NCBI RefSeq assembly: GCF_000003815.2
Contig: NW_023365773.1
Span: forward strand, 256,882 to 320,881
Direction of reading: 5' to 3'
DNA: 64,000 bases
Origin: Branchiostoma floridae
Lineage: Eukaryota; Chordata; Leptocardii; Amphioxiformes; Branchiostomatidae
Positions 99 to 25,017 of this stretch are shown piece by piece. The translations under genes were made by a program, and so were the position numbers. The notes under the pieces were generated by a model, which ran no database searches, was not told the origin of the DNA, and saw only the letters and a program-made list of their open reading frames with translations. Position 1 is the first letter of the stretch, and every line of letters starts with the position of its first letter.

Positions 99-416
99 CA
101 TTAACATAATATATGCACATCTGCAAAATCTGTTTCAAACCAAGCTAATTGGTTCACTATTAAAGAATATAGGTAGTGAAAATACATTTGGTGTAACAAC
201 AGGTGTTTCCCTATCATAATACAAACTTCAAATCAAATGTCAAATTTACAATATAGATTGAAGACTCTTACCAGCCACAAGAATTTGATAAGTAACAAAT
301 TGTATTAAGGGATTCGTCACACTTTGAAAGTTGTCTAAGCATATCATTCTATATTCAATTTTTGAGCACCCTTTGGGCACGTATTGCTGCTTTAGTTGTC
401 AGCTGTCCACTGGGTG
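99..416 (+). repeat. Array unit 1
   Basis: Block A at 99-115 (AATATATG variant). CCAGCCACAA at the expected spacing (~271). Degenerate block B: CACCC 367-371 pairs GGGTG 412-416, inner GCTG 386-389 pairs CAGC 400-403. Confidence 0.7.
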
Positions 417-792
417 GTTATAACAAAGAAAAAGGAGTCAAGGTTGTCTTCGAAATGGAAATAAAAAGAAGTTTAGGTTGTCTTGGAGATGGGAATAATT
501 TGTGGACATAGCAATCAGGAAAAGGAAGCCCCTACAGCCTTCATTGGAAAATCCACTTCCATGTGAAAATTTGTGCACAGATAAAGTTATTCTGAACATG
601 TGTCATTATAGGTATGGTCCAGAGGGTTCACATGGGGGTTACTGAATCAGGACCAACCCTGTGCCAAAGGGTATCAGGGTTCAGCGAACTGTAGATCCTT
701 GCCTTTGGATCAAATTTAATGGTCATGGAAGCCAGAGGTTGCCTAACACGAGGTCTGTGCTTGGGCATGCCTGTTAATAACCCACTATATAC

Positions 793-1066
793 TAGCCTCC
801 ATAGCAGGCTTTCTGGGGCCTTTTTTGGCTCATATAGTCATAATACACATTTGCTGGCCATTTCTATTTGTACTCGGTCGCTGATTGCTGGCATTTTCTG
901 ATTGCCGGCCTCCGAAAGCCTGCACCTAAACGGCGCATGAAAGTGATATTTTGGAGGCCGGCAATCAGAAAACGCCAGCAATCAGCGACCGAGTACGAAT
1001 AGAAATGGCCAGTAAATGTGTATTATGAGCCAAAAAAAGGCACCAGAAAGCCTGCTATGGAGGCTA
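793..1066. mobile_element. Foldback hAT-like MITE
   Basis: Almost the whole 274 bp is one long inverted repeat (ends TAGCCTCCATAGCAGGC and its complement), flanked by the exact 8-bp direct repeat CTATATAC at 785-792 and 1067-1074. Eight-bp duplications are typical of hAT elements. Non-coding. Confidence 0.88.
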
Positions 1067-1167
1067 CTATATACGGATATACTGATATACACTGATAGTA
1101 CTTGTTAACTAGGTTACAGCAAGGAGGAAAACTTTCCCTGTGCACTGCTTAAATACTTAGCTCTCCT

Positions 1168-1477
1168 CATTAACATAATTTATGCACTTCTGCAAACTTT
1201 GCTTTGTATTCATTTATGCAAAAGTAAAGCATCTTCAAATCTTGTGCCAATGCTACAAAACTGGAGGCATTACTAACTGTTCTTGCTTGTAGTTACTTAA
1301 ACAGTGATGAAACAAATATAGACAATGTTCCAAAACAATTGAACCACAAACATTGTGTGTCAAGTTCTCTTTATACATATTACACATTGTAATGCCCATA
1401 GGACGGCCGCTTCTTGTGGTCTTGTCGGAAAGATTGATTTTTTGGACACCCCAAGCTCGCTAGGAGATTATAAGGTG
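1168..1477 (+). repeat. Array unit 2
   Basis: Block A 1168-1184; GAACCACA at 1341 (+173). Block B is weak: CACC 1447-1450 and GGTG 1474-1477 after TTTTTTGGA. A second B-like stem (CACCTAG/CTGGGTG) lies near 1634-1665. Confidence 0.6.
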
Positions 1478-1829
1478 TGTGTTATAAGCTCCTGTACAAA
1501 GCAGCTCTGGGGTAATGAGAAATGAAAGAAAATGTAGTAATTAGAAGTTAACCTCAATTAGAAGTTAGTTGGCTTTATTTAATTTAGTACATATGCTCTG
1601 TGTTTCCTATTATAAAATTGCATTTTTCGGACACCTAGACAAATCTTACGACTTACCCTGGGTGAAAAATCAATCCAAGAGCAGTTGCTAAATAGTACAA
1701 GTGGCAAGACGCTTGGGTTGACAAATTGAATTTAACATTTTTTTCTGCTTTTTTCTTCTTTTGATTTTAATTTTACATGAATAAAATTACAATCAAGACA
1801 GTGTTGACAAACAAAATATGAAATTTTCG

Positions 1830-2110
1830 TCCCTCGGATAGGACGTTAAATGGAGGTCCCGTGTCTGGGGAGAGCCATACCCCGGGCACGTTAAAGAACC
1901 CGCCACATGTGCGATGGTGCGGTGTGAGTGGTACAAAACCTACAGTACCTTGGCCGCACCTGGGGCAATTACTGTCGTATTGAGGTCACCTGAGTGGCGC
2001 CGAATGGCAGCTCGCTCCAGACCCTTGCGATTTAGCCCCACCTATTGTAAACTCCTCGCAATTCAGCCCCTGGCTGCAAAGAGTGAGTAGTCGGCCCACC
2101 CCAATAACAA
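1830..2110. repeat. GC-richer dispersed-repeat-like segment
   Basis: The stretch with ggataggacgttaaatgg, ggtcccgtgtctgggg and gttaaagaacccgccac resembles a high-copy sequence seen in many invertebrate genomes (from memory, not searched). It contrasts with the AT-rich surroundings. Class (SINE or LINE tail) not determined. Confidence 0.5.
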
Positions 2111-2256
2111 TACCCAAATTCTTGTTGCCCTACCTTATATTGAATAATTTGTAACATATTTGTGTTGTCAGTAATGTTAACCCACCTGTATACTTATAGG
2201 ACTTCAATGGTGTATAATAACCATACATATTGTACAGACTAGGGCTGGGTACCGGT

Positions 2257-3602: not shown

Positions 3603-4040
3603 ACCGGTACAGAAAATTCAGGTCCAGGTCCGGTTCAGGTCCAAAGGATCAGGTCCAGGTCCGGACCTGAACCTGGACCTGATTCAGTATGACTCATACC
3701 AATGGTTCATTTCACTACAAAGAAATCTGTTTGGTGGAGTATTAGACTTACACTGGCGTTTTAAAACCCTACAACGCTAACTGCACCTGTACCATTGACT
3801 GTAAAACTTGGTAGAAATTATTATAAACTCTACTCTGCTTCACTCTTGTCATTTTCTTCCACCTGCAAGCGCCAAACGTGTGAATGCTTGATAAAATAAT
3901 CTGTTAATTTTCTAATCGGTCCAACATCCGGTCCATCTAATTTTTTCAGACCCGTTTTTTTCTGGACCGGTCCAATAAGAAAAACCGGTTTTGTACCGGT
4001 ACGCTGTACTGATACCCAGCCCTAGTACAGACACATACCT

Positions 4041-4338
4041 CATTAACATAATACATGTAAACATTCCCCAAACAGCTAAATATAGCTGACAACACTGCAA
4101 AATCTGTAAACCTCATCTTATGTTAATAAACAGTGTTCCAAGATGACTGTAAGCATGAAAATTGATACCTTTACATCACCCCACGTGATTAGGCTTGGGT
4201 CTTCGGGTATACAAAACTGTACAGTATATATGACCAGATTTTTATGTGGTTGGATTTAACCCTTATAACTGTATATCCAACACAAAATATTGGGCTTACC
4301 CAATTAGTTTTTGGGCACCCAGGCAAACAACTTGGGTG
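4041..4338 (+). repeat. Array unit 3
   Basis: Block A 4041-4057 (AATACATG variant), immediately right of a hAT-like insertion. Block B is a compact 8-bp stem, CACCCAGG 4316-4323 with CTTGGGTG 4331-4338 (one G:U on the plus strand); the inner hairpin is lost. The ACCACA box is not preserved. Confidence 0.75.
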
Positions 4339-4815
4339 TAAAAGTAATGAAAAATCAGATCCACAGTTTTCTAATATCATTCTGTCATATTGGTGAACAT
4401 GGCACTCTTTTTCTAGCTTTTACACATTTAATTAATGTTTTTACACATCTTGATTCAAATTTTCAGGTCTATGATTTTAGAATGTCAAAAACAATTGGCT
4501 GGTAAAACATCATGAAACCAAAGCCGGAGGACCAGCTTGAGTGCACTCACTTATTTTATGGAGTGAATATAGTCATCTTCTGAAGAAAATTTTCTTCCCT
4601 GCCCTCTGCTTGCATGATGCCTTTACACCTCTTTATCCATAGTGCTTTGCAACCAAAGGTCGGACACATGTAGAGGCACAAACAAAGAATAAATTGACGA
4701 AAAGAAAGATACACCACTGGCTGAATGAAGTGACAGTCAAAGCTACCAGAAACCACTCCCTACTGTACCAAAACTATGTACATTTTGTAGGAACAGGCTA
4801 CTAGTATTTATACCT

Positions 4816-5156
4816 CATTAACATAATTTATGCCACATTGGAAACATTCCAAATTTTGCCATTTTAAAAGATGCAATTCTGACAAACAAACTCATATTAC
4901 ACTAGACTAATTTTTACAAATAATATGTAACAAAAAAGTTACATTTAGTACTTGAGTTGTCTACCAAAGTGTCTGGGTTGATTCTGCAAAACCACACATA
5001 AAGAATTCACGAAGTAAATAATGTCCACTCATTGCCAGAGTATTATGACTCGATTGCAGTGTATTAGACTCGGTTGCGATGTAACGATCGTAATTTAATA
5101 ATTTTTGCACCCCACTTCTTTGCTGTGACGCGCATTGTCATAGTGGAGAGTGGGTG
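4816..5156 (+). repeat. Array unit 4
   Basis: Block A 4816-4832; AAAACCACA 4988-4996 (+172). Block B 5108-5156 has outer CACCC/GGGTG or CCCACT/AGTGGG and an inner 7-bp stem CTGTGAC with GTCATAG around a GCGCATT loop. Confidence 0.85.
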
Positions 5157-5541
5157 ATAAACAACTAAAGGGAATACAAGAGGGTACACATGGGGGGATC
5201 CTGGCAGCAGACGGAAGATATGAGAATCAAGGCATGGAAGGCTTGGCATTGGCACCGCTGAGGGTAGAAAAGAGCTAAAGAATATATAAGAGGCTCTGTA
5301 TGGGGGATTCTGGGGGAGGGTCAACAAATAGCTTGACTTATTTGTGAAAAAAGGTTTTGGAAATGAGTTTTTTTGACTTTTGGCCACTACTCCCTTAGTC
5401 TGCGAAGGAGGCTATGCCATTGAAGTCAAGTGAAGCAAAAAAGGGAACTGAAAACCCAACATGAAATCACCTGTTGATAGAAACTCCTTGCTTCTACTGT
5501 GTCATGCCTTGTACAAGGGCAGAAGCAAGCTATTTATACCT

Positions 5542-5866
5542 CATTAACATAATTTATGCCACGTTGGAAGCCTTCCAAATTTTGGCAATTCAAAATAATG
5601 TAATTGTATCAAACATGCTGATATCACAGTAGTTTTTTAAACTGATAATATGCAACAAGAAAGCTAACATTAGCTACTTGAGTTGTGATCCAGAGAGTTT
5701 AGGCTGAATCTATACAACCACATTCATTGTTTTCAGAGAACAAGACCTGATCTTGTACTATACTAAATTGCGGCGTCCATAAACGGCAAAAATGTCGCAA
5801 TTTTAATCTGCAATTTTTGTATCCCACATCTTCACTCTGACGCGCATTGTCACTGTGGAGAGTGGG
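5542..5866 (+). repeat. Array unit 5
   Basis: Block A 5542-5558; ACAACCACA 5714-5722 (+172). Block B 5823-5866: CCCAC/GTGGG outside, TGAC/GTCA inside around GCGCATT. Its 3' arm continues into the 71-bp minisatellite that follows. Confidence 0.85.
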
Positions 5867-6275
5867 TGGTGAACTATAAAGAAGAAATAAGAGGCTCTGT
5901 ATGGGGGGATCCTGGCATTGTCACTGTGGAGAGTGGGTGGTGAACTATAAAGAAGAAATAAGAGGCTCTGTATGGGGGGATCCTGGCATTGTCACTGTGG
6001 AGAGTGGGTGGTGAACTATAAGGAAGAAACAAGAGGCTCTGTATGAGGGGATCCTGGCACTTTCATTGACAAGAGTGGGTGGTGAACTACTAAACAAGAG
6101 GGTCTGTATGGGGGATCCTTGCATTGTCACTGTGGAGAGTGGGTGGTGAACTATAAAGAAGGAATAAGAGGCTCTGTATGGGGGGATCCTGGCATTTTCA
6201 TTGAGGAGAGTGGGTGGTTAACAACTAATGAAGTAATGAGAGGCTGTGTATGGGGGGATCCTGGCATTGTCAGTA
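5836..6275. repeat. 71-bp minisatellite grown from a block-B arm
   Basis: About six units of roughly 71 bp (tcactgtgga at 5850, 5921, 5992, then later copies) containing cattgtcactgtggagag, tgggtggtgaac, gaggctctgtatgg and ggggatcctggc. The first unit overlaps the 3' arm of array unit 5's stem-loop. A single related copy follows unit 4 (5136-5215). Confidence 0.88.
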
Positions 6276-6327
6276 TGGTACTCAAACTACAACCTTACTA
6301 GCACAGGCAAAGTTTGATAGTCTAGCT

Positions 6328-6644
6328 CATTAACATAATATATGTAACCAGGAACAAATACAAAATGTAGAGTTAAAAACTTACCCTAAAGTTAAGAATG
6401 TACAGTTAATTAGAGGGCTTTGACGAGTATAAAAGTAGACAAAAGAAATTCTACAGTTTTTAATCTGTTTAAGATCCTCTCTGACATGAACAATGATTTA
6501 CACCCACAATCATTGTATGGAAAACAGAATGATAAGAAGTGTTTGTCTCCCCATAAATATCACCCGACGCGTCCAAGCCCGTCTAATAATTTTCAATTTT
6601 TGAATCTCACATCTGCTCGACGCGCTTTAGTCAGCAGAGGTGGG
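6328..6644 (+). repeat. Array unit 6
   Basis: Block A 6328-6344 (AATATATG); ACACCCACA ~6500 (+172). Block B 6606-6644: CTCAC/GTGGG outside; inner CTGCT 6613-6617 and GAC 6619-6621 pair AGCAG 6633-6637 and GTC 6630-6632 with one bulged C. Inner sequence differs from other units but pairing is kept. Confidence 0.85.
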
Positions 6645-6907
6645 AGAAATAGACAAAAGCAAAGTTAGTAATTATCAATTTATCACATCTGTCCGCTATT
6701 CCCCATAATTATATGACACCAAACATTTCTCATAAATGAAGAGAATTTTCTTTGATTTGTTGTCTTTCAATTAATACTTTATACTTTAACTTCTTGAATC
6801 ATATCAATTATCGAAATCAAAGGTCACACAAGTCCAATGTTGGTCATTGAACAATTAATTATTCAGTGATCACTGTTCAGTTTTTGTATTGGTTGTCAGC
6901 ATATCCT

Positions 6908-7219
6908 CATTAACATAATTTATGCACTCTGCTCCAATATGATAGAAGAAAGCAGGTAACTATTGGCAACTGTGATGATTTTTCCCTGAATGTACCTACA
7001 AGATATTTAAGTTTTTTTCCCAACCAAGAGTATATGGTTATGTTGTAGGTTACACTTTTTTTACTACTGTGTATGTGGTGAGAAAAACCACAGCAGAAAG
7101 AGTATGTCAATAGGATATGATTACAAATGTACTGTGAATCTTTGTAATTCTTCCTATTGAAAACAATGAATTTTTGCCCACCCTGCACTGGCACAAGTGT
7201 CAGCAGCAACACATGGGTG
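6908..7219 (+). repeat. Array unit 7
   Basis: Block A 6908-6924; AAAACCACA 7084-7092 (+176); block B 7179-7219 with CACCC/GGGTG and inner CTGGCAC/GTGTCAG. Near-copy of unit 8. Confidence 0.9.
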
Positions 7220-7570
7220 CACATGAAAAATACATAATAATTTACAAATACACAGATGTTACATGATGAAGATTAGACATCCAGGTAATAAGATATGCCA
7301 AAAAGCAGTAACTCAAGCAACCGGATATGATTTCAGTGATATGATTTTGGTATTTTTTTTTTATATGATTTTGTTGATATGATTTTTCTTGTGTGATCTG
7401 ATATCTTCTGATTGATACTTGAACTTCTTGAATAAAAAAACAAAACAAAAAAACTTCTTAAATCATACCAATTATGAAATCAAAGATCACACAAGTCCAG
7501 TGTTGGTCATTGAACAATTAATTACTCAGCAATCACAGTTCAGTGTTTGTATGGAATTCCAGCATATCCT

Positions 7571-7880
7571 CATTAACATAATTTATGCACTACAATATGA
7601 TAGAACAAAAGCAGGTAACTATTGGCAACTGTGATAATTTTTTTCCTGTATGTTCCCACTTAATATTTAATTTTTTCCCAATCTAGAGTATACTGTCATG
7701 TTGTAGGTTATACTGGTATTACTACTGACCAGCCTGACTGGCGGGCAAAACCACTGCAGAAAGAGTCCATCAATATAACATGAGATTAGAAATGTACTTA
7801 GGGTCTTTCAGAGCTATACGCAAATATTCAATTTTTGATCACCCTGCACTGCCACAAGTGTCAGCAGCAACAAATGGGTG
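7571..7880 (+). repeat. Array unit 8
   Basis: Block A 7571-7587; AAAACCACT 7747-7755 (+176); block B 7840-7880, inner stem with one mismatch (CTGCCAC/GTGTCAG). Confidence 0.9.
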
Positions 7881-7902
7881 TACATGGAAAATAAGTAAAT
7901 CA

Positions 7903-8283: not shown

Positions 8284-8600
8284 TCACATATACATTTGTC
8301 TGCTACACTGTCTGCATTGTGAACAGACATGAACTTAATCTATACAAGGGAAAGTAATGTTGCTAGTTTGAGGCCTTTGGAAAGAGTGACTTGGCTAGAA
8401 AGTCTTGACTTTGCTAGACTAGAGGAAGAAAATAAGAAAATCTTGCTTGTTCAGGCCTTTGTACAAGCTTATATTGTCAAAAGGCTGGAAAATCTTTAAC
8501 CACTACAGATGTACAACATGTAGAGAACACAATAGTGACAATACTCTACTTTCATGTCCCACTACATATAAGGCTTACTGGTGACTCTATACATAGACCT

Positions 8601-8901
8601 TATTAACATAATTTATGTCACACTTCAATAGATGGCTAAATCTTGATATAAAAGCGCTAGATTTGACCTATATATGCATCACGTATTAATACTTCTTTAA
8701 CAAGACCACGAAGGAAAACCCTCTTACCCACAATCCATCCTAAAAGGATGTTATCTTTTCATATCTATACCAGCACCAGACACAGAAAGCACAGTGAGTA
8801 ATTACATATATCAATAACAGCCCAACTTGGATTCACTTTAATGATAGACCTTTATTGTACAAAATATTTTTGGACACCTACCTTGGTTGCCTTGGTAGGT
8901 G
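8601..8901 (+). repeat. Array unit 9
   Basis: Block A variant TATTAACATAATTTATG 8601-8617. Block B is a perfect 8-bp stem, CACCTACC 8875-8882 with GGTAGGTG 8894-8901, a compensatory variant of the usual arms without the inner hairpin. Confidence 0.8.
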
Positions 8902-9300
8902 TAAAAATAACGAAAAACATTGACAAATATTACACCTAATACCACATAGCTGAAAGGTGGTTGCAGTTTGGTTAATGTTATGTATCATGTGACATTAGTG
9001 TGGTAGACTGGTATCACTTACCAAGTTGGAAACTACACTCATGACTTCCATATTGGTGCCACTCTTACAGATATCCTGCAAAATCCACTACTAGTGTGAA
9101 TTGTAGACATAATTATCAGGTTACAACACAACCTATTTACCCATTGTGGTCTATCTGACCATCCCTGAAGAAGAAGAAAATTCTTGTTTTTTTCTAAAAT
9201 CAGGCAAAAATTAATGGGTGTACTTGCTGTGGCCTAAACTGCAAATACATAGATCGTCATACTTGATGCCTAGCTGTCTGCATTTTGCAGTTGTGAACCT

Positions 9301-9613
9301 CATTAACATAATTTATGTAAGGAGGTTAAAAACTCAGATATCACTACTGTTTGTTGTTGTCTTTACTTTATTTTGTAACTAAATGTTTGTGCTACAACTT
9401 AGTATCCGAGATAGTTACTAAGTAACACTTTCATTAATACTGTAAAGATGATAAATTAACGATTTAATAAAGAAACCCACAAACTTGAACCGCTTATAGT
9501 AAAAACCATGCCCCCCACCCAAACATTATCAACATTCACTGATGAATAAATGAATAATTTTTTAACATGCCCACAACAGGCACTGGCACAAGATGTCAGC
9601 AGCCTACAGTGGG
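9301..9613 (+). repeat. Array unit 10
   Basis: Block A 9301-9317; GAAACCCACA ~9472 (+172); block B 9570-9613, CCCAC/GTGGG with inner CTGGCA/TGTCAG. Confidence 0.85.
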
Positions 9614-9844
9614 TTATTAAAGATTGAAAGGAAATCTGGAAAAGAGCCAAAACTCATGTATTGAACATAATTCATTGGAAATTGGAAAAGGCGGGATTTC
9701 TTGTCTTACATTTTTCTGTTCTACACGATTTATCTCCCCGTCATGTTACCTGATATTAGGCACTGTGAAAGAATTGTAACATTATACTGACAAATAAGCA
9801 ACTCTATCTCCATTACATCATCATGCTAGGGTTCAGTAGCACCT

Positions 9845-10155
9845 CATTAACATAATTTATGCCTTTTCTGACATGATAGTTAAAAGTAAGCAGCTCTAGG
9901 CAAATGATGGCTTTTCCAGTGTTCGATATTACATGTTTTATACCATAGGATACACATTAAAACTATTATCTACATTTGTAAGCTGTAGATGTTTAAATAC
10001 TGACCATGTGACAGACAAGACCAGGGTATAAAGTCTTTCTATGTCATTCATTACAATATCCTTTATAATGAAAATTAAACCAGAACAAACAAAACTTAAG
10101 AATTTTTGCACACCTATGCACGCACTGGCCAAGTGTCAGCAGCAGGACATGGGTG
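9845..10155 (+). repeat. Array unit 11
   Basis: Block A 9845-9861; block B 10111-10155, outer CACCTAT with ATGGGTG (one U:G on the plus strand), inner CTGGC/GTCAG. The ACCACA box is degenerate. Confidence 0.85.
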
Positions 10156-10610
10156 TACGTACGAAACAACAATCATTTCCTGTCAGCTTAGGCCACGCCA
10201 CTTTTAGTTGTTGTTTCCTCGGATTTCCCAACCCTATTTTTTCCCGATTTGAAAACAAATAAATTTCAAATTGATGGCCACACCTCGTGTTGATAAAGTT
10301 TGAAGACTTTGACTATGGATTTGATTTTGAAAATGGACTATCATGAATATGTGCAAAGAAATTAGCAGATATGTAAAAAAGAGGAACCGAATTTTACCCA
10401 ACTTTACCTGTACAACTTAGACAAAGTAAGAGACACGAACAAACAATAAATAGTTATTCAGGCTTCAGATATCTTTTGCAGAGATGGGACTGACTTTAAT
10501 GCCAATTCAAATATATTCTTTTTTTTTCAGTACTTGATTTTATTTCTTTATTTATTCTTAAATCTTTGTGGTAGGAATAACATGCCTTTACTAGTTTTAG
10601 TAAAAGAATA

Positions 10611-10820
10611 CTGTAAATGCATTTAAGTTCGCGGGGATTTAATTTCGCGGGAGCGGAAAAAGGGACTTTTCGTGGTGGATTTAAGTTCGCGGTAACACCA
10701 TAGACTGCAGTCTAATACCATTACAGAAAAAAATGTTCGCGGTGGTTTTCAATTCGCGGTGAAGTGGTCACCGCGAAAACCGCGAACATTAATCCACCGC
10801 GAACATTTCTGCATTTACAG
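10611..10820. mobile_element. TA-flanked palindromic MITE (CTGTAAATG family)
   Basis: Ends CTGTAAATGCA/TGCATTTACAG, interior rich in TTCGCGG/CCGCGAA inverted repeats, flanked by TA. Other copies: 13436-13649, ~14289-14501, 16861-~17073, 60314-60495. Confidence 0.85.
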
Positions 10821-11102
10821 TAAATCAAAACATTTCAGACTTGGGTGTAGGTCTACTCAGGTATACAGTAATAGGATGAATGATATCCGGTAGTTTGTAC
10901 CAAAATGAATTTCACAGTATTGTAACCAGTACTCAGTACCCTGTACCAGTACACATCCCTAGTAGATAATATTAGTAAGACATAGCCTACTGTAACTTAT
11001 ATCACTTAGACATCTTTCTTTGTTGCAAATAGGATTATGTTACTTCATGGTATTTGCTCCAATGGCAGAATTTACATATATGGATTACAATTCTACTGAG
11101 CT

Positions 11103-11439
11103 CATTAACATAATTTATGTCAAAAAACTAAAACTGGACATTGCAAGTTATACTGTTTAACCTAATGCCAGGATTTAGTAGTTTTCAGCATTGATAAATA
11201 AACAAATATATATATAAACATAAAAGAATGTAAAAAGGCATTAGGAAATAAAAAGGATTTAGCCATACTAGATAATCATATCTTAAAAACCACAAATAGT
11301 TACTGCGTCTTTATATATATGTGATAAGAGGCTTCCTGAACCAAGCGCAACTTTGTTTGAACTAACATTTAACAGTGAAACGAAATACGATTAACCCACC
11401 AATAAAGCACTGGCACAAGTGTCAGCAGCCAACGGTGGG
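11103..11439 (+). repeat. Array unit 12
   Basis: Block A 11103-11119; AAAACCACA 11286-11294 (+183); block B 11395-11439, CCCACC/GGTGGG with inner CTGGCAC/GTGTCAG. Confidence 0.92.
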
Positions 11440-11888
11440 AGTAAAGAAAGAAGAAAGAAGGGTTTTGAAAATAGGTAGTCATTATAATTATATTGGTCAA
11501 ATGTACAAAGTTAACTCAAGATGTCATAGATAATGTAATCTTACCTTTCATCTTATCTTTGTGGCAGGAATAACATGCTTTTAGTAAAAGAATAAGTCAA
11601 AATAGTTTCATACTTGGGTGTGAATTTACTCGGGTATACAGAAATAGCTGCATTGATATTCAGTACTTTGGACCTGTACCTGAATGATTTTGACGGTATT
11701 GTAACCAGTACCCAGTACCAGTATACATCCCTAGTATATTTCACCATATATGTATTGATATTAGTAACACATAGCCTTTCTTTGTTGTTATTAAATAGTA
11801 AATAGGAAAAGTAAACAGGACTAGATGACTTCGTGGTATTTGTTACTACTTGATGGCAGAAATTGTGCCTGCTCTAGCCTTGTGAGCT

Positions 11889-12199
11889 CATTAACATAAT
11901 TTATGCCTACATACTAAAATTGGACATAGCAGGTTACATTAATGCCAGGATTTAGTATTTGTCAAACCGATAAATAAACTAGCATACACAGAAACATAAA
12001 ATAATGTAAAAAGGCAGTAATAAATAAAAATGATTTAACTATACTAGATAATCATATCTAAAAAACCACAAAAAGTTACAACAGCTTTCTTTCTATAGAC
12101 AAAGAGCCTACTTTAAACTAGCAGATAATATAAGATAAATCACAATTTTTGTATCCCACCAATAAAGCACTGGCACAAGTGTCAGCAGCCAAAGGTGGG
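11889..12199 (+). repeat. Array unit 13
   Basis: Block A 11889-11905; AAAACCACA 12062-12070 (+173); block B 12155-12199. First of the highly similar units that extend to 21 kb. Confidence 0.92.
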
Positions 12200-13377: not shown

Positions 13378-13435
13378 CCTGTACCTAAATGATTTTGATG
13401 GTATTGTAACCTGCTGAGTACCCAGTACCAGTATA

Positions 13436-13649
13436 CTGTAAATGCAGAAATGTTTGTGGTGGATTAATGTTCACGGTTTTTGCGGTGACCACTTCACCGC
13501 GACCGCGAACTTAAAACCACCGCGAACATTCTTCTATTATGGTATTAGACTGCAGTCTATGGTGTTACCGCGAACTTAAAACCACCGCAAAAAGTCCTTT
13601 TTCCTGCTACCGTGAAATTAAATCCCCGCGAACTTAAATGCATTTACAG
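13436..13649. mobile_element. CTGTAAATG MITE, copy in array
   Basis: Flanked by TA (13434-13435, 13650-13651); the empty site (ccagtatacatccc) is seen in units near 11.7 and 12.5 kb. The same insertion point is occupied in the next copies, so it was duplicated with the array. Confidence 0.88.
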
Positions 13650-13831
13650 TACATCATCAATATACATCCCTAGTATATTTCACCATGTATGTATTGTATA
13701 GTAACACATAGCCTACTCTAACTTTCTTTGTTGTTATCAAATAGTGAAAAGTAAGTAGGAATAGATGACTTTGTGGTACATGTATTTGTTAGTTGATGGT
13801 AGAATTTGTGCCTGCTCTAGCCTTGTGAGCT

Positions 13832-14139
13832 CATTAACATAATTTATGCCCACACACTAAAATTGGACATAGCAGGTTACATTAATGCCAGGATTTAGTA
13901 TTTGTCAAACCGATAAATAAACTAGCATACACAGAAACATAAAAGAATGTAAAAAGGCAGTAAGAAATAAAAACGATTTAACTATACTAGATAATCATAT
14001 CTTAAAAACCACAAAAAGTTACAACAGCTTTCTTTCTATAGACAAAGAGCCTACTTTAAACTAGCAGATAATATAAGATAAATCACAATTTTTGTATCCC
14101 ACTCATGGCACTGGCCAAGTGTCAGCAGCCCAAGGTGGG
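13832..14139 (+). repeat. Array unit 15
   Basis: Block A 13832-13848; AAAACCACA 14005-14013 (+173); block B 14098-14139. Confidence 0.92.
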
Positions 14140-14288
14140 AGTAAAAAAGAAGAAAGAAGTGTCTGGAAAATGGGTGGCCGTTATGATATTATTGGTCAAA
14201 TGATGGTCCTACCATGTACAAAGTTAACTCAAGACCTGTAACTAAATGATTTTGATGGTATTGTAATCTGCTGAGTACCCAGTATACC

Positions 14289-14501
14289 AGTAAATGCAGA
14301 AATGTTTGTGGTGGATTAATGTTTGCGGATTTCGCGGTAACCACTTCACCGCGACCACGAACTTAAAACCACCGCGCACATTCTTCTATTATGGTATTAG
14401 ACTGCAGTCTATGGTGTTACTGCGAACTTAAAACCACCGCAAAAAGTCCTTTTTCCTGCTACCGTGAAATTAAATCCCCGTGAACTTAAATGCATTTACA
14501 G
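14289..14501. mobile_element. CTGTAAATG MITE, duplicated copy
   Basis: Same position within its unit as 13436-13649; left end lacks the first bases (gtaaatgcag). Confidence 0.85.
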
Positions 14502-14686
14502 TACATCATCAATATACATCCCTAGTATATTTCACCATGTATGTATTGTATAGTAACACATAGCCTACTCTAACTTTCTTTGTTGTTATTAAATAGTAAA
14601 TAGGAAAAGTAAACAGGACTAGATGACTTCGTGGTATTTGTTACTACTTGATGGCAGAAATTGTGCCTGCTCTAGCCTTATGAGCT

Positions 14687-14994
14687 CATTAACATAATTT
14701 ATGCCTACATACTAAAATTGGACATAGCAAGTTACATTAATGCCAGGATTTAGTATTTGTCAAACCGATAAATAAACTAGCATACACAGAAACATAAAAG
14801 AATGTAAAAAGGCAGTAATAAATAAAAATGATTTAACTATACTAGATAATCATATCTTAAAAACCACAAAAAGTTACAACAGCTTTCTTTCTATAGACAA
14901 AGAGCCTACTTTAAACTAGCAGATAATATAAGATAAATCACAATTTTTGTATCCCACTCATGGCACTGGCCAAGTGTCAGCAGCCCAAGGTGGG
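14687..14994 (+). repeat. Array unit 16
   Basis: Block A 14687-14703; block B 14953-14994. Its right flank carries the mariner insertion at 15046. Confidence 0.92.
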
Positions 14995-15184
14995 AGTAAA
15001 AAAGGAAGACAGAAGGATTTGGAAAATGGTGGCCATGCTGTCATACGAGGGGCGTGCAATAAGTAATGGTCCTGACCCACTTCCAGTTGTCTGATCTAAA
15101 TGAAATTTTGTATGTGTAATAATTCATATCTCTATGGGTTATGTTGCAAAAGACAGCTCTGAACTAATTGTGGTTTCTGATTTA

Positions 15185-15900: not shown

Positions 15901-16399
15901 TTCCTATGAAGAGAAAGACTAATAACTGTGCCAAGTTTCATTAATCTCCTGCTATGGGAAATGGGTCAGGACCATTACTAATTGCACGCCCCTCGTATGG
16001 TCAAGGGACATTACGTTGGTCAAATAACCCATCCTACCTTGTACCAAGTTAACTTTTGACAAGATGTCATTTGTTTATTCTTTATTTCCTATTTTCTATC
16101 CTTGTGGTAGTTTCATACTTGGATGTAAGTCTACACAGGTATACAGTAATAGGTGCATTGATATTCAGAAGTTTGGACCTGTACCTAAATGATCTGATGG
16201 TATTGTTACCTCCTGAGTACCCAGTACCAGTATTCATCCCTACTAGTATATTTCCCCATATGTGTATTGATATTAGTAACACATAGACTACTCTAACTTT
16301 CTTTGACGTTATTGAATAGTGAAAAGTAAACCAGACTAGATAACTTCATGGAATTTGGGCCTGCTCTATATAACTCAAGTGCCACATGCCTTGGGAGCT

Positions 16400-16706
16400 C
16401 ATTAACATAATTTATGCCTACACACTAAAATCGGACATAGCAGGTTACAATAATGGCATGATTTAGTATTTGTCAAACCGATAAATAAACTAGCATACAC
16501 AGAAACATAAAAGAATGTAAAAAGGCAGTAATAAATAAAAATGATTTAACTATACTAGATAATCATATCTTAAAAACCACAAAAAGTTACAACAGCTTTC
16601 TTTCTATACACAAAGAGCCTACTTAAACTATCAGACAAAATACGATTAATAACAATTTTTGTATCCTACTCATGGCACTGGCCAAGTGTCAGCAGCCCAA
16701 GGTGGG
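16400..16706 (+). repeat. Array unit 17
   Basis: Block A 16400-16416; AAAACCACA 16573-16581 (+173); block B 16665-16706 with CCTAC/GTGGG, a U:G pair on the plus strand where sisters have C:G. Confidence 0.92.
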
Positions 16707-16860
16707 AGTAAAAAAAGAAGAAAGAAGGGTCTGGAAAATGGGTGGCCATTATAATATTATTGGTCAAATGATGGTCCTACCATGTACAAAGTCAACTCAA
16801 GACCTGTACCTAAATGATTTTGATGGTATTGTAACCTGCTGAGTACCCAGTACCAGTATA

Positions 16861-17073
16861 CTGTAAATGCAGAAATGTTTGTGGTGGATTAATGTTTGCG
16901 GTTTTTGCGGTGACCACTTCACCGCGACTGCGAACTTAAAACCACCGCGACCATTCTTCTATTATGGTATTAGACTGCAGTCTATGGTGTTACCGCGAAC
17001 TTAAAACCACCGCAAAAAGTCCTTTTTCCTGCTACCGTGAAATTAAATCCCCGCGAACTTAAAATGCATTTAA
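16861..17073. mobile_element. CTGTAAATG MITE, third copy in array
   Basis: Same unit position as 13436-13649; right end eroded (tgcatttaatatac). Confidence 0.85.
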
Positions 17074-17534
17074 TATACATCCCTAGTATATTTCACCATG
17101 TATGTATTGTATAGTAACACATAGCCTACTCTAACTTTCTTTGTTGTTATCAAATAGTGAAAAGTAAGTAGGACTAGATGACTTTGTGGTATTTGTTAGT
17201 TGATGGCAGAATTTGTGCCTGCTCTAGCCTTGTGAGCTCATTAACATAATTTATGCCTACATACTAAAATTGGACATAGCAAGTTACATTAATGCCAGGA
17301 TTTAGTATTTGTCAAACCGATAAATAAACTAGCATACACAGAAACATAAAAGCATGTAAAAAGGCAGTAATAAATAAAAATGATTTAACTATACTAGATA
17401 ATCATATCTTCAAAACCACAAAAAGTTACAACAGCTTTCTTTCTATAGACAAAGAGCCTACTTGACCTATCAGACAAAATACGATTAATAACAATTTTTG
17501 TATCCCACTCATGGCACTGGCCAAGTGTCAGCAG

Positions 17535-19481
17535 ACACTGTTGCCAAAGAAGGGAGACGAATTGGACCCCAAGAACAGGAGACCAATCTCCCTCCTAAAC
17601 ACCGACTACAAAATTTTGACTAAAGTTCTTAATAACCGCCTTCAGTCTGTAATAGCGTCGGTGTTGCACCCGGACCAAACCTGTGGTGTACCAGGAAGGT
17701 CGATCCAGTGCAACCTCCGACTCACACGAGACATAGTTGTTTACGCAAATAACAATAACATCGAATGTGCTATTGTCTCCCTTGATCAAGCAAAAGCCTT
17801 TGACCGTGTCAACATCTCCTTTCTACAACAGACTCTCGCACGAATGGGATTTGGACCTTCCTTTCGGAAGTGGGTTTCAATACTTTACAACGACATCTCC
17901 AGTTCCGTTTTGGTGAATGGCTCCCTGTCGTCTCCCTTCGCCCTAACAAGGGGAGTGCGGCAGGGATGCCCACTTTCGCCACTGTTGTATGCAATCTCTC
18001 TTGAGCCGTTTGCGGCGACAGTCCGCAAAGACTCTGAGGTGCATGGAGTAAAACTCCCAGGCGGCTACGAAGCCAAAATGTCTCTGTATGCAGATGATAA
18101 CTCTGTCTTCCTGACATCAGACGACTCTATCGTCAGGCTGTTTGACCTTGTCGGGCTGTACAACAGAGGCTCAGGCTCAATGTTGAACCTAGACAAATGT
18201 GAGGGGTTATGGCTGGGGAAATGGAGAAATAGACCAGACACCCCTGTACAAATAAAATGGACATCTGGGTCCATCCGTCTGCTTGGTGGGGTCTTTGGCA
18301 ACATTGACATGCCCCTAACCAACTGGAAGGAAGGTAAACGCAAATTTGTTGAAACCTTACAAGGATGGGGAGCCAGATCCCTCTCCTTTACAGGCAAAGT
18401 GACAGTGGCAAACTCTCTAGCCACCGCCAAACTGTGGTACCTGGCGTCGGTGTTCACCCCTCCTGATTCGGTCATGAAGGAAATCAATACCGCACTGTTC
18501 GCCTTTTTCTGGGACAAAAAGCGTGAGATGATCAGCCGAAATACCATCTACCTTCCTCCTGAGAAGGGCGGCTGGGGCCTAATCGACATAGCAAAGAAGG
18601 CAAAATGTCTGTACAGTCGGCCTTTCTCGGACATCATGTCCCAGGAAGACTTACCTTGGGTGCAGCTCGCCAGGTACTGGCTCGGTATTTTCATTAGACG
18701 TTTCGACCCGTCAACATGGTCCAATAACATGCCCCACTCCCCGAATGCCCCTCCCCACTACAAAGCTCACAAGCTACTACAGTCCCTGGTATCTGAACTC
18801 GTAGAGGCATCCCCCTCTAAAAAGTGGGACCCCGGGTGCACTACGCGGTCTCTATACGACAGCCTTCTAAAGAAGGATGCTCACATTCCAAGCGTCTGTC
18901 TTAACAAGCGTTCTGTTCCCTGGCCATTAACCTTCCAATCTGTTCAACACCCACTCCTGGAGAACAGACTGAAGGATACTGCATGGCTGGTTGCACACCA
19001 CGCCCTCAAAACGAATGCCCTGCTCTGTTCGAACTGGGGTTACATTCGCTCGGGAACTTGTCCAAGGCAGAATTGTAAAGGCCACGAAACTGTAGAGCAC
19101 GCCATGTGGTACTGCAGCGAAGTGCTGCTAACATGGACTTGGGTGGAGGGTTTTCTCAGGAGGTGGGTCATGTCAGACTTCCGAATAAATAAACAGATGG
19201 TTATCTATGGCATCCTGCCACCCTCATGGAAAAAATGCAAGATAGATGCTATCACCTACACCCTGGCCGTCGCGAGGAAACGCATATGGTCCTCACCTTG
19301 TGAAGCACTCTTTGACAAGACCTTTTCGACTCATGTCGAGATGGTCCCATACATCAAGGAGTGCCTCCGCTCAAGAATAAAGCTTGACTTTGTACGTCTG
19401 AACGAAACAACGTTTATGTCTCTGTGGTGCTCAGTGCAGTGGGCGAGGGTCGACGGGGGAAAACTGCGACTACGCTTTTAA
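17535..19481 (+). CDS. LINE ORF2 C-terminal part: reverse transcriptase and zf-RVT-like region
   Basis: The open frame can be read from an ATG at 17511, but the first eight residues (MALAKCQQ) come from the array's stem-loop, not the LINE. LINE sequence starts with TLLPKKGD. Counting from 17511 (656 residues): RT motif A SLDQAKAFDRV (D92), motif B GVRQGCPLSPLLY (148-160), motif C YADD (193-196), thumb, then a Cys/His-rich zf-RVT-like segment (CPRQNCKGHETVEHAMWYC, about 515-535). TAA at 19479. The KKGD...RPISLLN and HPDQTCGVPGRSI wording fits the L1-like Tx1 clade. No internal stops, so the insertion is fairly young, but truncation makes it non-autonomous. Confidence 0.92.
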   Translation, partial: TLLPKKGDELDPKNRRPISLLNTDYKILTKVLNNRLQSVIASVLHPDQTCGVPGRSIQCNLRLTRDIVVYANNNNIECAIVSLDQAKAFDRVNISFLQQTLARMGFGPSFRKWVSILYNDISSSVLVNGSLSSPFALTRGVRQGCPLSPLLYAISLEPFAATVRKDSEVHGVKLPGGYEAKMSLYADDNSVFLTSDDSIVRLFDLVGLYNRGSGSMLNLDKCEGLWLGKWRNRPDTPVQIKWTSGSIRLLGGVFGNIDMPLTNWKEGKRKFVETLQGWGARSLSFTGKVTVANSLATAKLWYLASVFTPPDSVMKEINTALFAFFWDKKREMISRNTIYLPPEKGGWGLIDIAKKAKCLYSRPFSDIMSQEDLPWVQLARYWLGIFIRRFDPSTWSNNMPHSPNAPPHYKAHKLLQSLVSELVEASPSKKWDPGCTTRSLYDSLLKKDAHIPSVCLNKRSVPWPLTFQSVQHPLLENRLKDTAWLVAHHALKTNALLCSNWGYIRSGTCPRQNCKGHETVEHAMWYCSEVLLTWTWVEGFLRRWVMSDFRINKQMVIYGILPPSWKKCKIDAITYTLAVARKRIWSSPCEALFDKTFSTHVEMVPYIKECLRSRIKLDFVRLNETTFMSLWCSVQWARVDGGKLRLRF

Positions 19482-19774
19482 TCCCCTGCTTCCCCCCTGT
19501 AGTCGTATCAGTCTGGTATGAACTGTCTGTCTTGTACGTTTCGTATGTCTTTTTTATTTGGATGTGTCAAGTTGGCAGGAGTGGGTTGGTGGGAGCTCGG
19601 CGGACAAGTAACCTGTTGTGGGTAGCTTGACACATCCCTTTTTCTTTCCTTCTTCTCTTGTATGTTCTTTGAAATGATGTAAAAAAAAAAAATGAAAACA
19701 GTGAAAAAACGTCTTGTCTCTCTTGTCTAGTTTTCTTTCTTTTTTGATTTTGTTATACCCCCATTAAAAACGGG
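17535..19774 (+). mobile_element. 5'-truncated Tx1-clade LINE in array unit 18
   Basis: 2240 bp from mid reverse transcriptase to the 3' end (ATACCCCC...AAAAACGGG, no poly-A). The empty site in sisters (gtcagcag|cccaagg) shows no target duplication and no lost bases. The endonuclease and the start of ORF2 are missing. Confidence 0.93.
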
Positions 19775-20091
19775 CCCAAGGTGGGAGTAAAAAAGGAAGA
19801 CAGAAGGGTTTGGAAAATGGTGGCCATGCTGTCATATGGTCAAGGGACATTACGTTGGTCAAACAACCCATCCTACCTTGTACCAAGTTAACTTTTGACA
19901 AGATGTCATTTGTTTATTCATTTATTTCCTATTTTCTATCCTTGTGGTAGTTTCATACTTGGATGCAAGTCTACACAGGTATACAGTAATAGGTGCATTG
20001 ATATTCAGACCTGTACCTAAATGATTTGATGGTATTGTTACCTCCTGAGTACCCAGTACCAGTATACATCCCTAGTATATTTCCCCATATG

Positions 20092-20423: not shown

Positions 20424-20567
20424 ATATGTGTATTGATATTAGTAACACATAGCCTACTCTAACTTTCTTTGACGTTATTGAATAGTGAAAAGTAAATTAG
20501 ACTATAGATAACTTCATGGAATTTGGGCCTGCTCTATATAACTCAAGTGCCACATGCCTTGGGAGCT

Positions 20568-20880
20568 CATTAACATAATTTATGCCTACACACTAAAATC
20601 GGACATAGCAGGTTACAATAATGGCATGATTTAGTATTTGTCAAACTGATGAATAAAGTAGCAAATAAATAAACATAAAAGAATGTAAAAAGTCGTTAAG
20701 AAATAAAAATGATTTAACTATACTAGATAATCATATCTTGAAACCCACAAGTTACTGCAGCTTTCTATACATACACAAAGAGCCTACTTTGCACCACCAG
20801 ACAAATACGATTTAATACTAGTAACAATTTATGTATCCCACCAATAAAGCACTGGCACAAGTGTCAGCAGCAAAGGTGGG
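20568..20880 (+). repeat. Array unit 19
   Basis: Block A 20568-20584; AAACCCACA about +175; block B 20837-20880, CCCACC/GGTGGG with inner CTGGCAC/GTGTCAG. Confidence 0.92.
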
Positions 20881-21059
20881 AGTATTGAAAGAGCAAAGAA
20901 GGGATTGGAAAATTTGACATGACTTACATGTACAAACTAAACTCAAGATGTCATAATTCATGTAATCTTACCATTTTTTTTGTAAATCTTACTAATTGCT
21001 CTTGAGCTAGAAAGCTTCCTTTATCAATAAAACTAAAGCAACAATACTTGGTAACTTTT

Positions 21060-21581: not shown

Positions 21582-21641
21582 AGCTCCATTCTTACTCATT
21601 AGTTCATGCCAGCTCCCATACCTGTATACTGGTGATGACCT

Positions 21642-21910
21642 CATTAACATAATTTATGCCAGCATATTATAACTCAGACGCACTTTCTGACCTTCTTATA
21701 AATTGGAATGTTTGGTTTTATCAGCTAGAAAATAATGGGATTTATTCTAATCAAGAATTACTTCTCTTATCATAACATTAAGAAACTCTTGAAGTACCAC
21801 TTTGAGAGAAAAAGTTACAAATAATTAAGTCATCTGCACTTATGAGTAACTTTGCAATTCAACTTGAACATAAATAAAATTTTTGATGACCAACATGGCA
21901 CTGGCACAAG
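21642..21910 (+). repeat. Array unit 20, block B truncated
   Basis: Block A 21642-21658; block B stops inside its loop at ctggcacaag (21910), where a tandem-duplication junction joins sequence equivalent to 21114 onward. Confidence 0.85.
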
Positions 21911-22040
21911 ATCGGGCTGGGGTTTGGTAACCAGGCTAGGTAACTTTGTGGTACTGGTATTTGTTGATTACTGGCCACCTAGCTCCATTCTTACACATTA
22001 GTTAAGGCCAGCTCCCATACCTGTATACTGGTGATAACCT

Positions 22041-22527
22041 CATTAACATAATTTATGCCTGCATATTATAACTCAGATGATATGCATTTTCTGACCTTCT
22101 AAGTTGGACTCGCTGCATTTATGAGCTAGAAAAGAATGGGATTTATTTCAGTTGATCTAACCAAAGATAAGAATTACTTCGCTCATCATAACATTAACTA
22201 ACTCTTGGAACTGACAACTTTAGGAGAAAAGCCACAAGTAATTAACTTAAAGAGTCATCTGCACTTATGAGTAACTTTGCAATTCAACTTGAAAATAAAT
22301 AAAATTTCTGATGACCAATATGGCACTGCCACAAGTGCCTATATACAGTAGAAGCCAGTTAATTGCACATTTCATTTTTTCGCACACGGAATCCCCAAAT
22401 CCCAAACAGGTGCGGTCCACCTAGATAGCTTCGCATTATTGCACCATACGGATATTGCAGGAAATTTACTGGCAAAATAGGCCAGTGCAAGTAAGCGGCA
22501 CAAGTTGTCAGCAGCTGACAAAGTGGG
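22041..22527 (+). repeat. Array unit 21, block B split by a MITE
   Basis: Block A 22041-22057. Block B starts near 22318 (tggcactgccacaagtg), is interrupted by a pogo/Tigger-like fragment (~22340-22500), and resumes as gttgtcagcagc with GTGGG at 22523-22527. Confidence 0.8.
22340..22500. mobile_element. pogo/Tigger-like MITE fragment
   Basis: Starts tacagtagaagccagttaat and ends with a rough complement; resembles 29734-29879. It splits block B of array unit 21. Confidence 0.6.
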
Positions 22528-22539
22528 TGAAAACAAAGT

Positions 22540-23505
22540 AAAGAAGCTTTGTGCTATATTTGTTTTTATTTCATACATGTACAATTATTTGATCTTAGAA
22601 CATAGCCACTACCCCTCAGCCAATCAGAGCACTTCAATTACTGTGTTTATATCCCTTTATGTTGTGAATTTGTGTGGTTTGGGAGAAAACTAAATGCTGA
22701 TGTTAAGAAAAAGTTTTGTCTGTTTGCCTCATTGACCTCATTTTAGATCTATCATGGTTGCCACTTGCCAGGTGAGAAAGGTGTGTAAACTTCAGGGGGT
22801 GGTGCCTGTCTCATTAACATAATTTATGTCACAATACTATGAGTCAGGCAATATGTGTTTTCTTACCTTTTGCTAAATTGGACTGACTTCTTTTTAAGAG
22901 CTGAATATATATAGAATTGATTACTGATTATTAAATAATAATAAAAATCAAATCTTTAATTACTATAAAGTCTTGGGGCTGAGGAATACCACTAAACCTA
23001 AATTTATCTGCACCTATATCAAATTTTACGATGAGACAAATCTTTAACAAGAACATTTAAGAATTAAAATTTTTCGAACCCACAAATACTGGCGCTGCAA
23101 ATGTCGGCAGCCTAACTAGTGGGTGTTACCAAACACAAGGAAGGACATCAACTAGTACATAAACTAACAGTCTACCACCAAACAAAAGACTGTCCATCAT
23201 AAATAGCAGTTCAACAAATGATAACGTGGCAATTAGGAAAGCGACCATTAAGAAAGAGAAGGGCTGCATGTCCGTCAAATATTTGCATTATATTTTATTT
23301 TGCATCTCTTAAGGGACTAGGATCAGTCTACACCATTCTAAATTGCTACATATTTCGATATTTACTATTTGATCTTAACATAATTGTGAAAACTTGTGTG
23401 GTTTGGGGGAAAACTAAATGGGACCTGATTTTAGAAACAAGTTTTGTCTGTTTGCCTCACTGACATCATCTTCAATCTATCATGGCTGTCGCGTGAGAAA
23501 GGTGA
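22540..23505. repeat. Two relics of the TACACCTTTCTCAC MITE
   Basis: Segments at about 22664-22795 and 23388-23505 share gtgtggtttggg, aaaactaaatg, ttttgtctgtttgcctca and gtgagaaaggtg with the intact element at 59517-59913. Confidence 0.7.
22812..23123 (+). repeat. Array unit 22
   Basis: Block A 22812-22828; AATACCACT ~22985 (+173); block B 23079-23123, CCCAC/GTGGG with a diverged inner part (ctggcgctgc...gtcggcag). Confidence 0.85.
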
Positions 23506-23530
23506 ATAAATTCAGGGAAGATGCCAACCT

Positions 23531-23846
23531 CATTAACATAATTTATGTCACAATACGATTACTGAGATAATGCCTGTTTTCTTCCCTTTTACTAAATTAG
23601 ACTGACTGATTTTCAAAAGCGAAAAACATACAAAATTTACGACAGATAATCTCATAATAATGAAAACCATGTCTCCCATTACAAATAACTCTGGAAGCTG
23701 ACTGAAAACCACAAATGCTAATTTCTGCTGCATGGGGCACTAATATTGCAATCTACTAATTGGCATACCTTTCTTACTTCAAGAACTAAATTTCCAATTT
23801 TTGATGACCCACGAGCACTGGCACAAGTGTCAGCAGCTTAAGTGGG
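23531..23846 (+). repeat. Array unit 23
   Basis: Block A 23531-23547; AAAACCACA 23705-23713 (+174); block B 23808-23846. Confidence 0.9.
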
Positions 23847-23897
23847 CATAAAGACTAATAATCAGGAGGGAAGGAAGGAACAAATTTTGCATGTGAT

Positions 23898-24231
23898 TAG
23901 GGATGGGTGACTGTAAAAACTTATTACCCAAAACAATGGTCCATTTTGCTACAAAGGATATTCGATCTTCATGTAAACAACACCATCTGCCTCTGTTTTA
24001 GACCAAGTTTGACCATAGAATCTTGGCAAAAAATGTCTATCAACTCCCTCTACTTAGCTCTTGTTCTTTTCTTGTACCTGCAAGCCCCAAAACACATGAA
24101 TGCCTGCCGATATACAAGTAATCTGTTCATTTTCTACTTGGTTCAACATCCGGTCCACTGATTTTCGGGTCCGTTTTTTTATGGACCGGCCCAAAAAGAA
24201 AGAAACAGTTTTGTACAGGTACCCACCGCTA
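23898..24231. mobile_element. hAT-like element, related to 2240-4024
   Basis: TAGGGATGGGT...ACCCACCGCTA ends, imperfect 8-bp duplication (catgtgat / catacgat), and an interior matching the right part of 2240-4024 (cctgcaag, caacatccggtcca, ggaccgg). Confidence 0.7.
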
Positions 24232-24680
24232 CATACGATCATTACATGTTCAACCATTTTTTCTAAAGATGTACTTGTATTGAATTGTTTCTGCCAGTCC
24301 ATTCTAGTGACCCTGAAGAATAGTGATGGATGTCATATCATGTCACTCGAAATCTCCGGACGAAGTAAATCTCCATTTTCATTCAGTTGTACAGACTGAA
24401 TTGTATTTGAATATTTGAATATTGTTTACCTGGATGTCTAACCTTCATAAACATATGAAGCATATACATGTACATGTACATGTATCCTAATATAAGAATG
24501 TTTATTGCAAGTTCATGCCTGAAGGCTAATTGCAAGTACAAACAACACGTATGATAAAGAAAAGGTGCTATGACAATGGTGCTAAGAACTATATAAGTAG
24601 CACAGAGCCCACTCTGACGTTATGCTAGTTTATGCCAGCTCCCATACTTCTACCAATCAATTGGGGGAAGACGCAAGTCT

Positions 24681-25017
24681 CATAAACATAATTTATGACA
24701 AAATACCACAACCTAGATGATATTTCTTTTCTGAAACTTTTGTATAGATTAGACTGCTTTTCGTGAACTAAAAATACCAAATTTATGAGGAAGATGATAC
24801 AATGACAATGCAAATCACATCTCTCATTAATATAAACTCTTGGAGCTGAATGAAAACCACAAACAAATAGGTCACCTGCAAATATGTGAGTTATGCAATT
24901 TCCGTTTCTCCTTATTCTTGTTAGGAACAAGAATAGCTGTTTCAACAAAGTCTCAAAGTAGTATCAATTTTTGGAACCCACAGGGCACTGGCTTAAGTGT
25001 CAGCAGCCTGGAGTGGG
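24681..25017 (+). repeat. Array unit 24 (last clear unit)
   Basis: Block A variant CATAAACATAATTTATG 24681-24697; AAAACCACA 24853-24861 (+172); block B 24977-25017, inner CTGGC/GTCAG. A further A-like relic near 25538 has no block B. Confidence 0.85.

Follow-up and report, generated by a model that had tools for sequence, protein, structure and literature searches.

The small nuclear RNAs (snRNAs) U1 and U2 carry an Sm site followed by a 3' stem-loop, the same tail that we predict for the units described here. U7 combines a short leader with an Sm site and a 3' stem-loop; its Sm site is non-canonical, and its leader is histone-pairing. To our knowledge, few animal RNAs of the Sm class are known besides spliceosomal RNAs, U7, SmY, and spliced leaders. 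In human snRNA genes, a distal sequence element (DSE) acts as an enhancer, a proximal sequence element (PSE) acts as the core promoter, and a TATA box marks genes of RNA polymerase III (Pol III); evidence is also given for a nucleosome between the DSE and PSE that brings both together (PMC5493778). Here, we analyzed a 64,000-nucleotide stretch of the amphioxus Branchiostoma floridae (contig NW_023365773.1, here C215, 256882-320881; hereafter the window), in which 24 repeated units form an array. Judged from sequence, this array is probably a cluster of RNA polymerase II (Pol II) snRNA-type genes. A conserved block A at about -235 would be the DSE and a CCACA box at about -58 the PSE of a Pol II snRNA-type promoter.

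Block A (CTCATTAACATAATTTATG) was found at 24 sites on the plus strand of the whole window with up to 3 mismatches and at none on the minus strand. It was exact in 19 of the 24 units, and all 24 had no more than 2 mismatches. The box, defined as [ACG]CCACA, followed at A+178 to A+193 in 18 units, or in 20 with a relaxed pattern. A T-run of the Sm type or a near variant was present at A+241 to A+290 in 23 units (20 by the strict pattern), unit 12 being without a T-run or Sm site. When the segment after the T-run was folded for each unit, a stem-loop was obtained in most; it was broken in units 18, 20, and 21. The 'B' sequence of a preliminary description (GTCAGCAG and two variants) was present in 17 of the 24 units, and most of the remaining units have a different stem-loop in its position. 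The units are as follows, in window positions, with unit ends placed at about Sm+62 throughout.

Unit 1: 97-419, + strand; A 97-115, PSE core 274, predicted start ~332, Sm site 357-364, stem-loop to ~416.
Unit 2: 1166-1499, + strand; A 1166-1184, PSE 1343, predicted start ~1401, Sm site 1437.
Unit 3: 4039-4368, + strand; A 4039-4057 (2 mismatches), PSE box not found, Sm-like AGTTTTTG 4306, stem-loop CACCCA..TGGGTG.
Unit 4: 4814-5162, + strand; A 4814-4832, PSE 4991, predicted start ~5049, Sm site 5100.
Unit 5: 5540-5874, + strand; A 5540-5558, PSE 5717, predicted start ~5775, Sm site 5812; its 3' end lies within a 71-bp tandem repeat (5844-6272).
Unit 6: 6326-6657, + strand; A 6326-6344, PSE 6503, predicted start ~6561, Sm site 6595.
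Unit 7: 6906-7231, + strand; A 6906-6924, PSE 7087, predicted start ~7145, Sm site 7169.
Unit 8: 7569-7892, + strand; A 7569-7587, relaxed PSE 7750, predicted start ~7808, Sm site 7830.
Unit 9: 8599-8927, + strand; A 8599-8617, no PSE box by pattern, Sm-like TATTTTTG 8865, 9-bp stem.
Unit 10: 9299-9618, + strand; A 9299-9317, PSE 9476, predicted start ~9534, Sm-like AATTTTTT 9556.
Unit 11: 9843-10163, + strand; A 9843-9861, no PSE box by pattern, Sm site 10101, 9-bp stem.
Unit 12: 11101-11441, + strand; A 11101-11119, PSE 11289, stem-loop, no Sm site; perhaps a dead unit.
Unit 13: 11887-12206, + strand; A 11887-11905, PSE 12065, predicted start ~12123, leader 12123-12143, Sm site 12144-12151, stem-loop 12154-12200.
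Unit 14: 12669-12987, + strand; A 12669-12687, PSE 12846, predicted start ~12904, Sm site 12925.
Unit 15: 13830-14149, + strand; A 13830-13848, PSE 14008, predicted start ~14066, Sm site 14087.
Unit 16: 14685-15004, + strand; A 14685-14703, PSE 14863, predicted start ~14921, Sm site 14942.
Unit 17: 16398-16716, + strand; A 16398-16416, PSE 16576, predicted start ~16634, Sm site 16654.
Unit 18: 17237-17540, + strand; A 17237-17255, PSE 17415, predicted start ~17473, Sm site 17493; stem-loop interrupted by an insertion with a reverse-transcriptase reading frame (17466-19481; Pfam RVT_1, E 2.3e-33), and a stretch resembling the 3' part of unit 16 at 19774-19836.
Unit 19: 20566-20888, + strand; A 20566-20584, PSE 20744, predicted start ~20802, Sm-like AATTTATG 20826.
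Unit 20: 21640-21940, + strand; A 21640-21658, no PSE at the expected place, Sm site 21878, stem-loop lost.
Unit 21: 22039-22365, + strand; A 22039-22057, PSE 22231 (displaced), Sm-like AATTTCTG 22303, stem-loop lost.
Unit 22: 22810-23130, + strand; A 22810-22828, relaxed PSE 22988, predicted start ~23046, Sm-like AATTTTTC 23068.
Unit 23: 23529-23858, + strand; A 23529-23547, PSE 23708, predicted start ~23766, Sm site 23796.
Unit 24: 24679-25028, + strand; A 24679-24697, PSE 24856, predicted start ~24914, Sm site 24966, stem-loop to ~25018.

The family extends beyond the window. With up to 2 mismatches, block A had 1,530 + 1,438 sites in the genome (513 Mb in 431 contigs) against 29 + 32 for a reversed-letter control, and therefore is not a chance word. 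The exact sites counted 80, with further groups at 236-245 kb of C215 and on C5 (15.64 Mb), C15 (17.37 Mb), and C19 (9.53 and 9.85 Mb); the DNA at these groups carries the array-type unit too. After 13 name groups were dropped (repeats, broken or overlapping), 76 units were collected, and a similarity filter left 56; 60 of the 76 and 40 of the 56 have both box and Sm site. The composite pattern A-N{148,176}-CCAYA-N{66,96}-TTTTTG had 48 matches (39 + 9) on seven contigs, one C19 unit entering twice, and none (0 + 0) in the reversed-letter control or, genome-wide, with A inverted. Twelve of the 48 matches are in the window. By place, C215 has 25, two C19 groups have 9 and 3, C5 has 4, the group at 17.37 Mb of C15 has 2, C143 has 2, and C17 has 1; the remaining two are single matches on C2 and at 2.54 Mb of C15. 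In the units on C17 and C143, the spacer matches that of a C15 unit at 95-96% identity; these units may be copies or haplotypes. In an ungapped comparison of the 56 units (-100 to +200), at least 0.35 bits were reached only at 0-20 (A), 29-32, 40, 42, and 179-183 (box). These results agree with the preliminary description that 24 units keep their blocks in order and that the sequence between blocks is not common to distant units. Its fixed spacing holds as near-constant, with 241-290 bp measured from A to the T-run in place of the 265-296 bp given to B, and the extent that it gave needs enlarging, as the array runs on upstream of the window from about 235 kb of C215.

We compared the units with snRNA matches of the same genome (12 of 30 for U2, 5 of 5 for U6, and 10 of 23 for U1), those of U1 and U2 representing 10 promoter types. 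Six of the 10 types have CCA[CT] at -57, give or take 1 base; elsewhere between -198 and -6, a given offset was shared by 2 types at most (mean, 0.14). In three of the five U6 matches, CCACGG was present at -63/-64; the other two look degraded and were unplaced. The array box contains the PSE core of these U1 and U2 genes. Four of the six U1 types, three of them related to one another, carry reversed A at -264 to -266 (3-4 mismatches), and one U2 gene carries it at -317 (2 mismatches); in each of these cases, none of 300 shuffles matched as well. We therefore take A to behave like a DSE and the box like a PSE. The ACCACA/CCACA box is best read as a PSE core and block A, by its match in position and sequence only, as a DSE.

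The distance from A to the box was 176-178 in 42 of the 60 units with box and Sm site. The intervening spacer of ~160 bp, fixed in length and free in sequence, may accommodate a nucleosome like the one between the human DSE and PSE; we propose that the A-to-box length is constant over unshared and unstructured sequence because of such a nucleosome. TATA-like words were found at -36 to -18 in 4 of 40 units, against 0, 0, and 3 of 40 in three other intervals, and TATATA was present at -36 to -18 in two of the three placed U6 genes. With TATA-like words at about background, the units appear to lack the Pol III mark. An assignment of A itself as the PSE, with the RNA starting 60 bp on, was dropped: the examined upstream regions of U1, U2, and U6 have no A at -60, and A+40 to A+250 gave no folding signal.

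The predicted start was set at box+58 by the U1/U2 spacing, that is, from the PSE and before CpG dinucleotides were examined. With this start, leader lengths are 14-53 nt in all but one of the 60 units, whose leader is 7 nt, and the predicted RNA, measured as far as the best outer helix extends, is 58-105 nt (39 units in which both ends could be set). The Sm sites of the units have the consensus AAUUUUUG, which we take to fit the consensus Sm site, and a 3' stem-loop follows. The product would thus consist of a variable leader, an Sm site, and a 3' stem-loop, then weakly a 3' box, and at 58-105 nt would probably bind an Sm ring. The segment after the Sm site folded with a mean z of -2.03 on the plus strand and -1.32 on the minus strand (n = 56), and stretches short of it gave z from -0.32 to +0.05 on the plus strand; only the post-Sm segment folds better than shuffled sequence. 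When arms were swapped between units, pairing fell from 9.84 for own arms to 8.36 (standard deviation, 0.24; 0 of 2,000 permutations; n = 46), and in units without CACCC from 9.72 to 8.01 (n = 29). As a control, the same test on another region had no effect. These results indicate that the stem-loop arms covary.

The predicted start coincides with a step in CpG content. In 40 units, the observed/expected ratio of CpG stayed at 0.05-0.36 throughout the 20-base bins between -260 and 0, and it rose from 0.25 (-20 to 0) to 1.29 (0 to +20) at similar G+C. In the next two bins, it was 0.56 and 0.47, and in the exact leaders overall it was 1.31. The four cluster groups gave leader ratios of 1.31 (22 units), 1.08 (10 units), 1.64 (4 units), and 1.52 (4 units). 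Since the start had been fixed beforehand from the U1/U2 spacing, this step is independent support for it. The signal is an upstream decay that is absent in the leader; CpG may have been retained there through selection on the RNA, because the leaders are young, or because methylation is lacking.

Leaders were compared in 17 paralog pairs, each unit being used once. Mean identity was 0.83 in the DSE-PSE spacer, 0.75 from PSE to start, 0.65 in the leader, and 0.82 in the Sm site and stem-loop. Leader identity was lower than spacer identity in 13 of 17 pairs and equal or higher in 4 (p = 0.0003, somewhat too small because within-cluster pairs are related). Units 16 and 18, for example, share 0.98 of the spacer and 0.71 of the leader, and unit 17 shares 94-97% of the spacer and 71% of the leader with units 13-16. 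The 22 of 40 leaders that are at least 28 nt long fold slightly (z of -0.81, against -0.26 and +0.11 in controls) and have no sequence in common; the other 18 are shorter. A 14-mer search for antisense matches to leaders gave 165 matches, of which the 20 listed were one minus-strand unit on its own DNA and thus uninformative.

Several observations weigh against an assignment as Pol II snRNA-type genes. Four of the 10 U1/U2 types (U1 L077-L079 and U2 L060) have CC at -57, not CCA[CT]. No A-like DSE was seen for U6, the U2 array on C11, U2 L059 and L060, or U1 L076, and that of U1 L081 is weak, with 6 mismatches and equalled by 6.7% of shuffles. Words resembling A occur frequently in the genome, including in dispersed repeats, and block A alone is unspecific, many of the 30 exact sites examined outside the window sitting in such repeats. 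In 16 of the 76 collected units, the box, the Sm site, or both went unrecognised. The score for a 3' box, built from U1/U2 flanks, was raised only weakly (p = 0.01 against shuffles and 0.001 against DNA further down). The leaders are CpG-undepleted, not enriched, with CpG in 25 of 40 against 22.3 expected from composition, and their complementarity to U1, U2, or U6 did not exceed that of shuffles. Finally, identity of the upstream flank is 0.61 against 0.65 for the leader, which is thus no more diverged than the flank. Because the flank is no better conserved, the leader may be either unconstrained or diversified, and its divergence does not by itself imply selection for diversity.

The array could instead consist of dead or dying relics, former snRNA-type genes that spread by duplication and are now mostly untranscribed, their conservation being due to recent copying and gene conversion. 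Units 12, 18, 20, and 21 are clearly broken, paralogs are highly alike in the promoter spacer, as expected from gene conversion, and CpG is low outside the leader. However, the stem arms covary across old copies, A, the box, and the Sm site are fixed where the rest is unalignable, and leader CpG is retained in all four cluster groups; we consider relics unlikely.

Two further explanations are highly improbable. A transposable element with ends near A and the stem-loop would fit the drop in identity to about 0.5 upstream of A in moderate-identity paralogs, the spread of composite matches over seven contigs, and the larger dispersed repeats that bear A with an ACCACA box at +177. By contrast, neither stem covariation nor a promoter of U1/U2 register is a transposon trait, all window units lie on one strand, and the composite has only 48 matches, mostly clustered. 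The case is no better for a repeated enhancer module of A, ACCACA, and TCAGCA that regulates a neighbour gene. Here, the strand-biased folding and stem covariation indicate an RNA, the elements fit the promoter registers of U1, U2, and U6, and clusters lie on several contigs, although the orientation of A is fixed and A and the box presumably resemble transcription-factor sites (we take ACCACA to be RUNX-like and TCAGCA to be MAF-like).

Other repeats and genes were observed around these sequences. One dispersed element (L009, L015, L027, L030, L031, L050, and L055) has two tandem A copies, an ACCACA box (at +177 in L050 and L055), and a GTCAGCAG region; L009 is at least 95% identical to L015, L027, L030, and L031 over 1.5-2.8 kb of the 3 kb compared. 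It is perhaps a mobile element using an array-type promoter. In a second dispersed repeat of about 1 kb (L010, L013, and L014; 97% identical), the A word follows 'CCATCTTG(G)', and no unit was seen around it. A CCGCGAAC-rich repeat lies between units at 10609-10822, 13434-13651, 14290-14503, and 16859-17063 of the window, mutually inverted in places, and a stretch like it is inside a C5 unit (L043, from 7525). Downstream of the array, on the same strand, 48582-48962 holds an RRM reading frame (Pfam RRM_1, E 9.2e-10), presumably CELF-like. U2 matches lie in either orientation at 1160564-1241827 of C11; the spacing is about 1 kb for many, and several are weak or partial.

The whole window had no Rfam match at the gathering score, including U1, U2, U5, U6, and U11, and a search of 1-26 kb up to E = 10 gave 11 matches at chance level (best E, 0.46). 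An H/ACA small nucleolar RNA was dropped as a candidate; SNORA63, the best within-unit Rfam match considered, had E = 1.3. For U11, RF00548 had one match in the genome, on C9, and none in the window. A search with RF00066 (U7) gave no match, but its controls were silent too. A spliced leader RNA is unlikely, with a donor-like word in 1 of 40 leaders and leaders unlike one another. In open-access full texts on amphioxus, the RNA type, or the promoter type, no such family was present among the matches listed. The term undescribed used in the preliminary description is thus upheld within this scope, although genes of this architecture are already known. Its suggestion of a noncoding RNA family is retained, by sequence, as clustered genes, but A and the ACCACA box more plausibly belong to the promoter than to the RNA. 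If transcribed, the units would represent a new RNA family.

SmY of nematodes resembles the array in having small multicopy Sm-class genes with an Sm site and a 3' stem-loop (PMC11229312), and some array leaders have a possible 5' hairpin as well. SmY has a conserved first stem-loop before the Sm site and a role alongside spliced-leader trans-splicing (PMC11229312), whereas array leaders are not conserved. With no conserved first stem-loop ahead of their Sm sites, the units were not assigned to SmY. Spliced-leader trans-splicing in amphioxus was not reported among the open-access matches listed, and the two passages of PMC4122922 consulted are silent on it.

U1 and U2 of the same genome are like the array in PSE-to-start distance, in clustering, and, for some U1, in a DSE-like element; the array differs in the orientation of A, opposite to that of their DSE, and in its dozens of strongly diverged copies. 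This comparison yields, as a by-product, a reading of the snRNA PSE core and DSE in this genome. U7 is like the units in its leader, Sm site, and 3' stem-loop, but the units have a canonical AAUUUUUG Sm site and variable leaders; as their Sm sites are of the AATTTTTG type and not non-canonical, they were not identified as U7. The product may act as a U7- or SmY-like adaptor small nuclear ribonucleoprotein (snRNP) whose Sm/stem-loop tail is constant and whose leader, specific to each copy, would contact RNA or protein. Because the leader usually diverges more than the promoter or tail, a U7-like adaptor with a variable guide is our best functional guess. We tentatively suggest, as a possibility of modest probability, a multi-cluster snRNP family with a constant tail and a fast-turning guide leader, that is, a U7-like adaptor diversified to many targets in a chordate. 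If true, dozens of leader-variant Sm-class RNAs in a chordate would make the reuse of the Sm scaffold as a multi-target adaptor testable.

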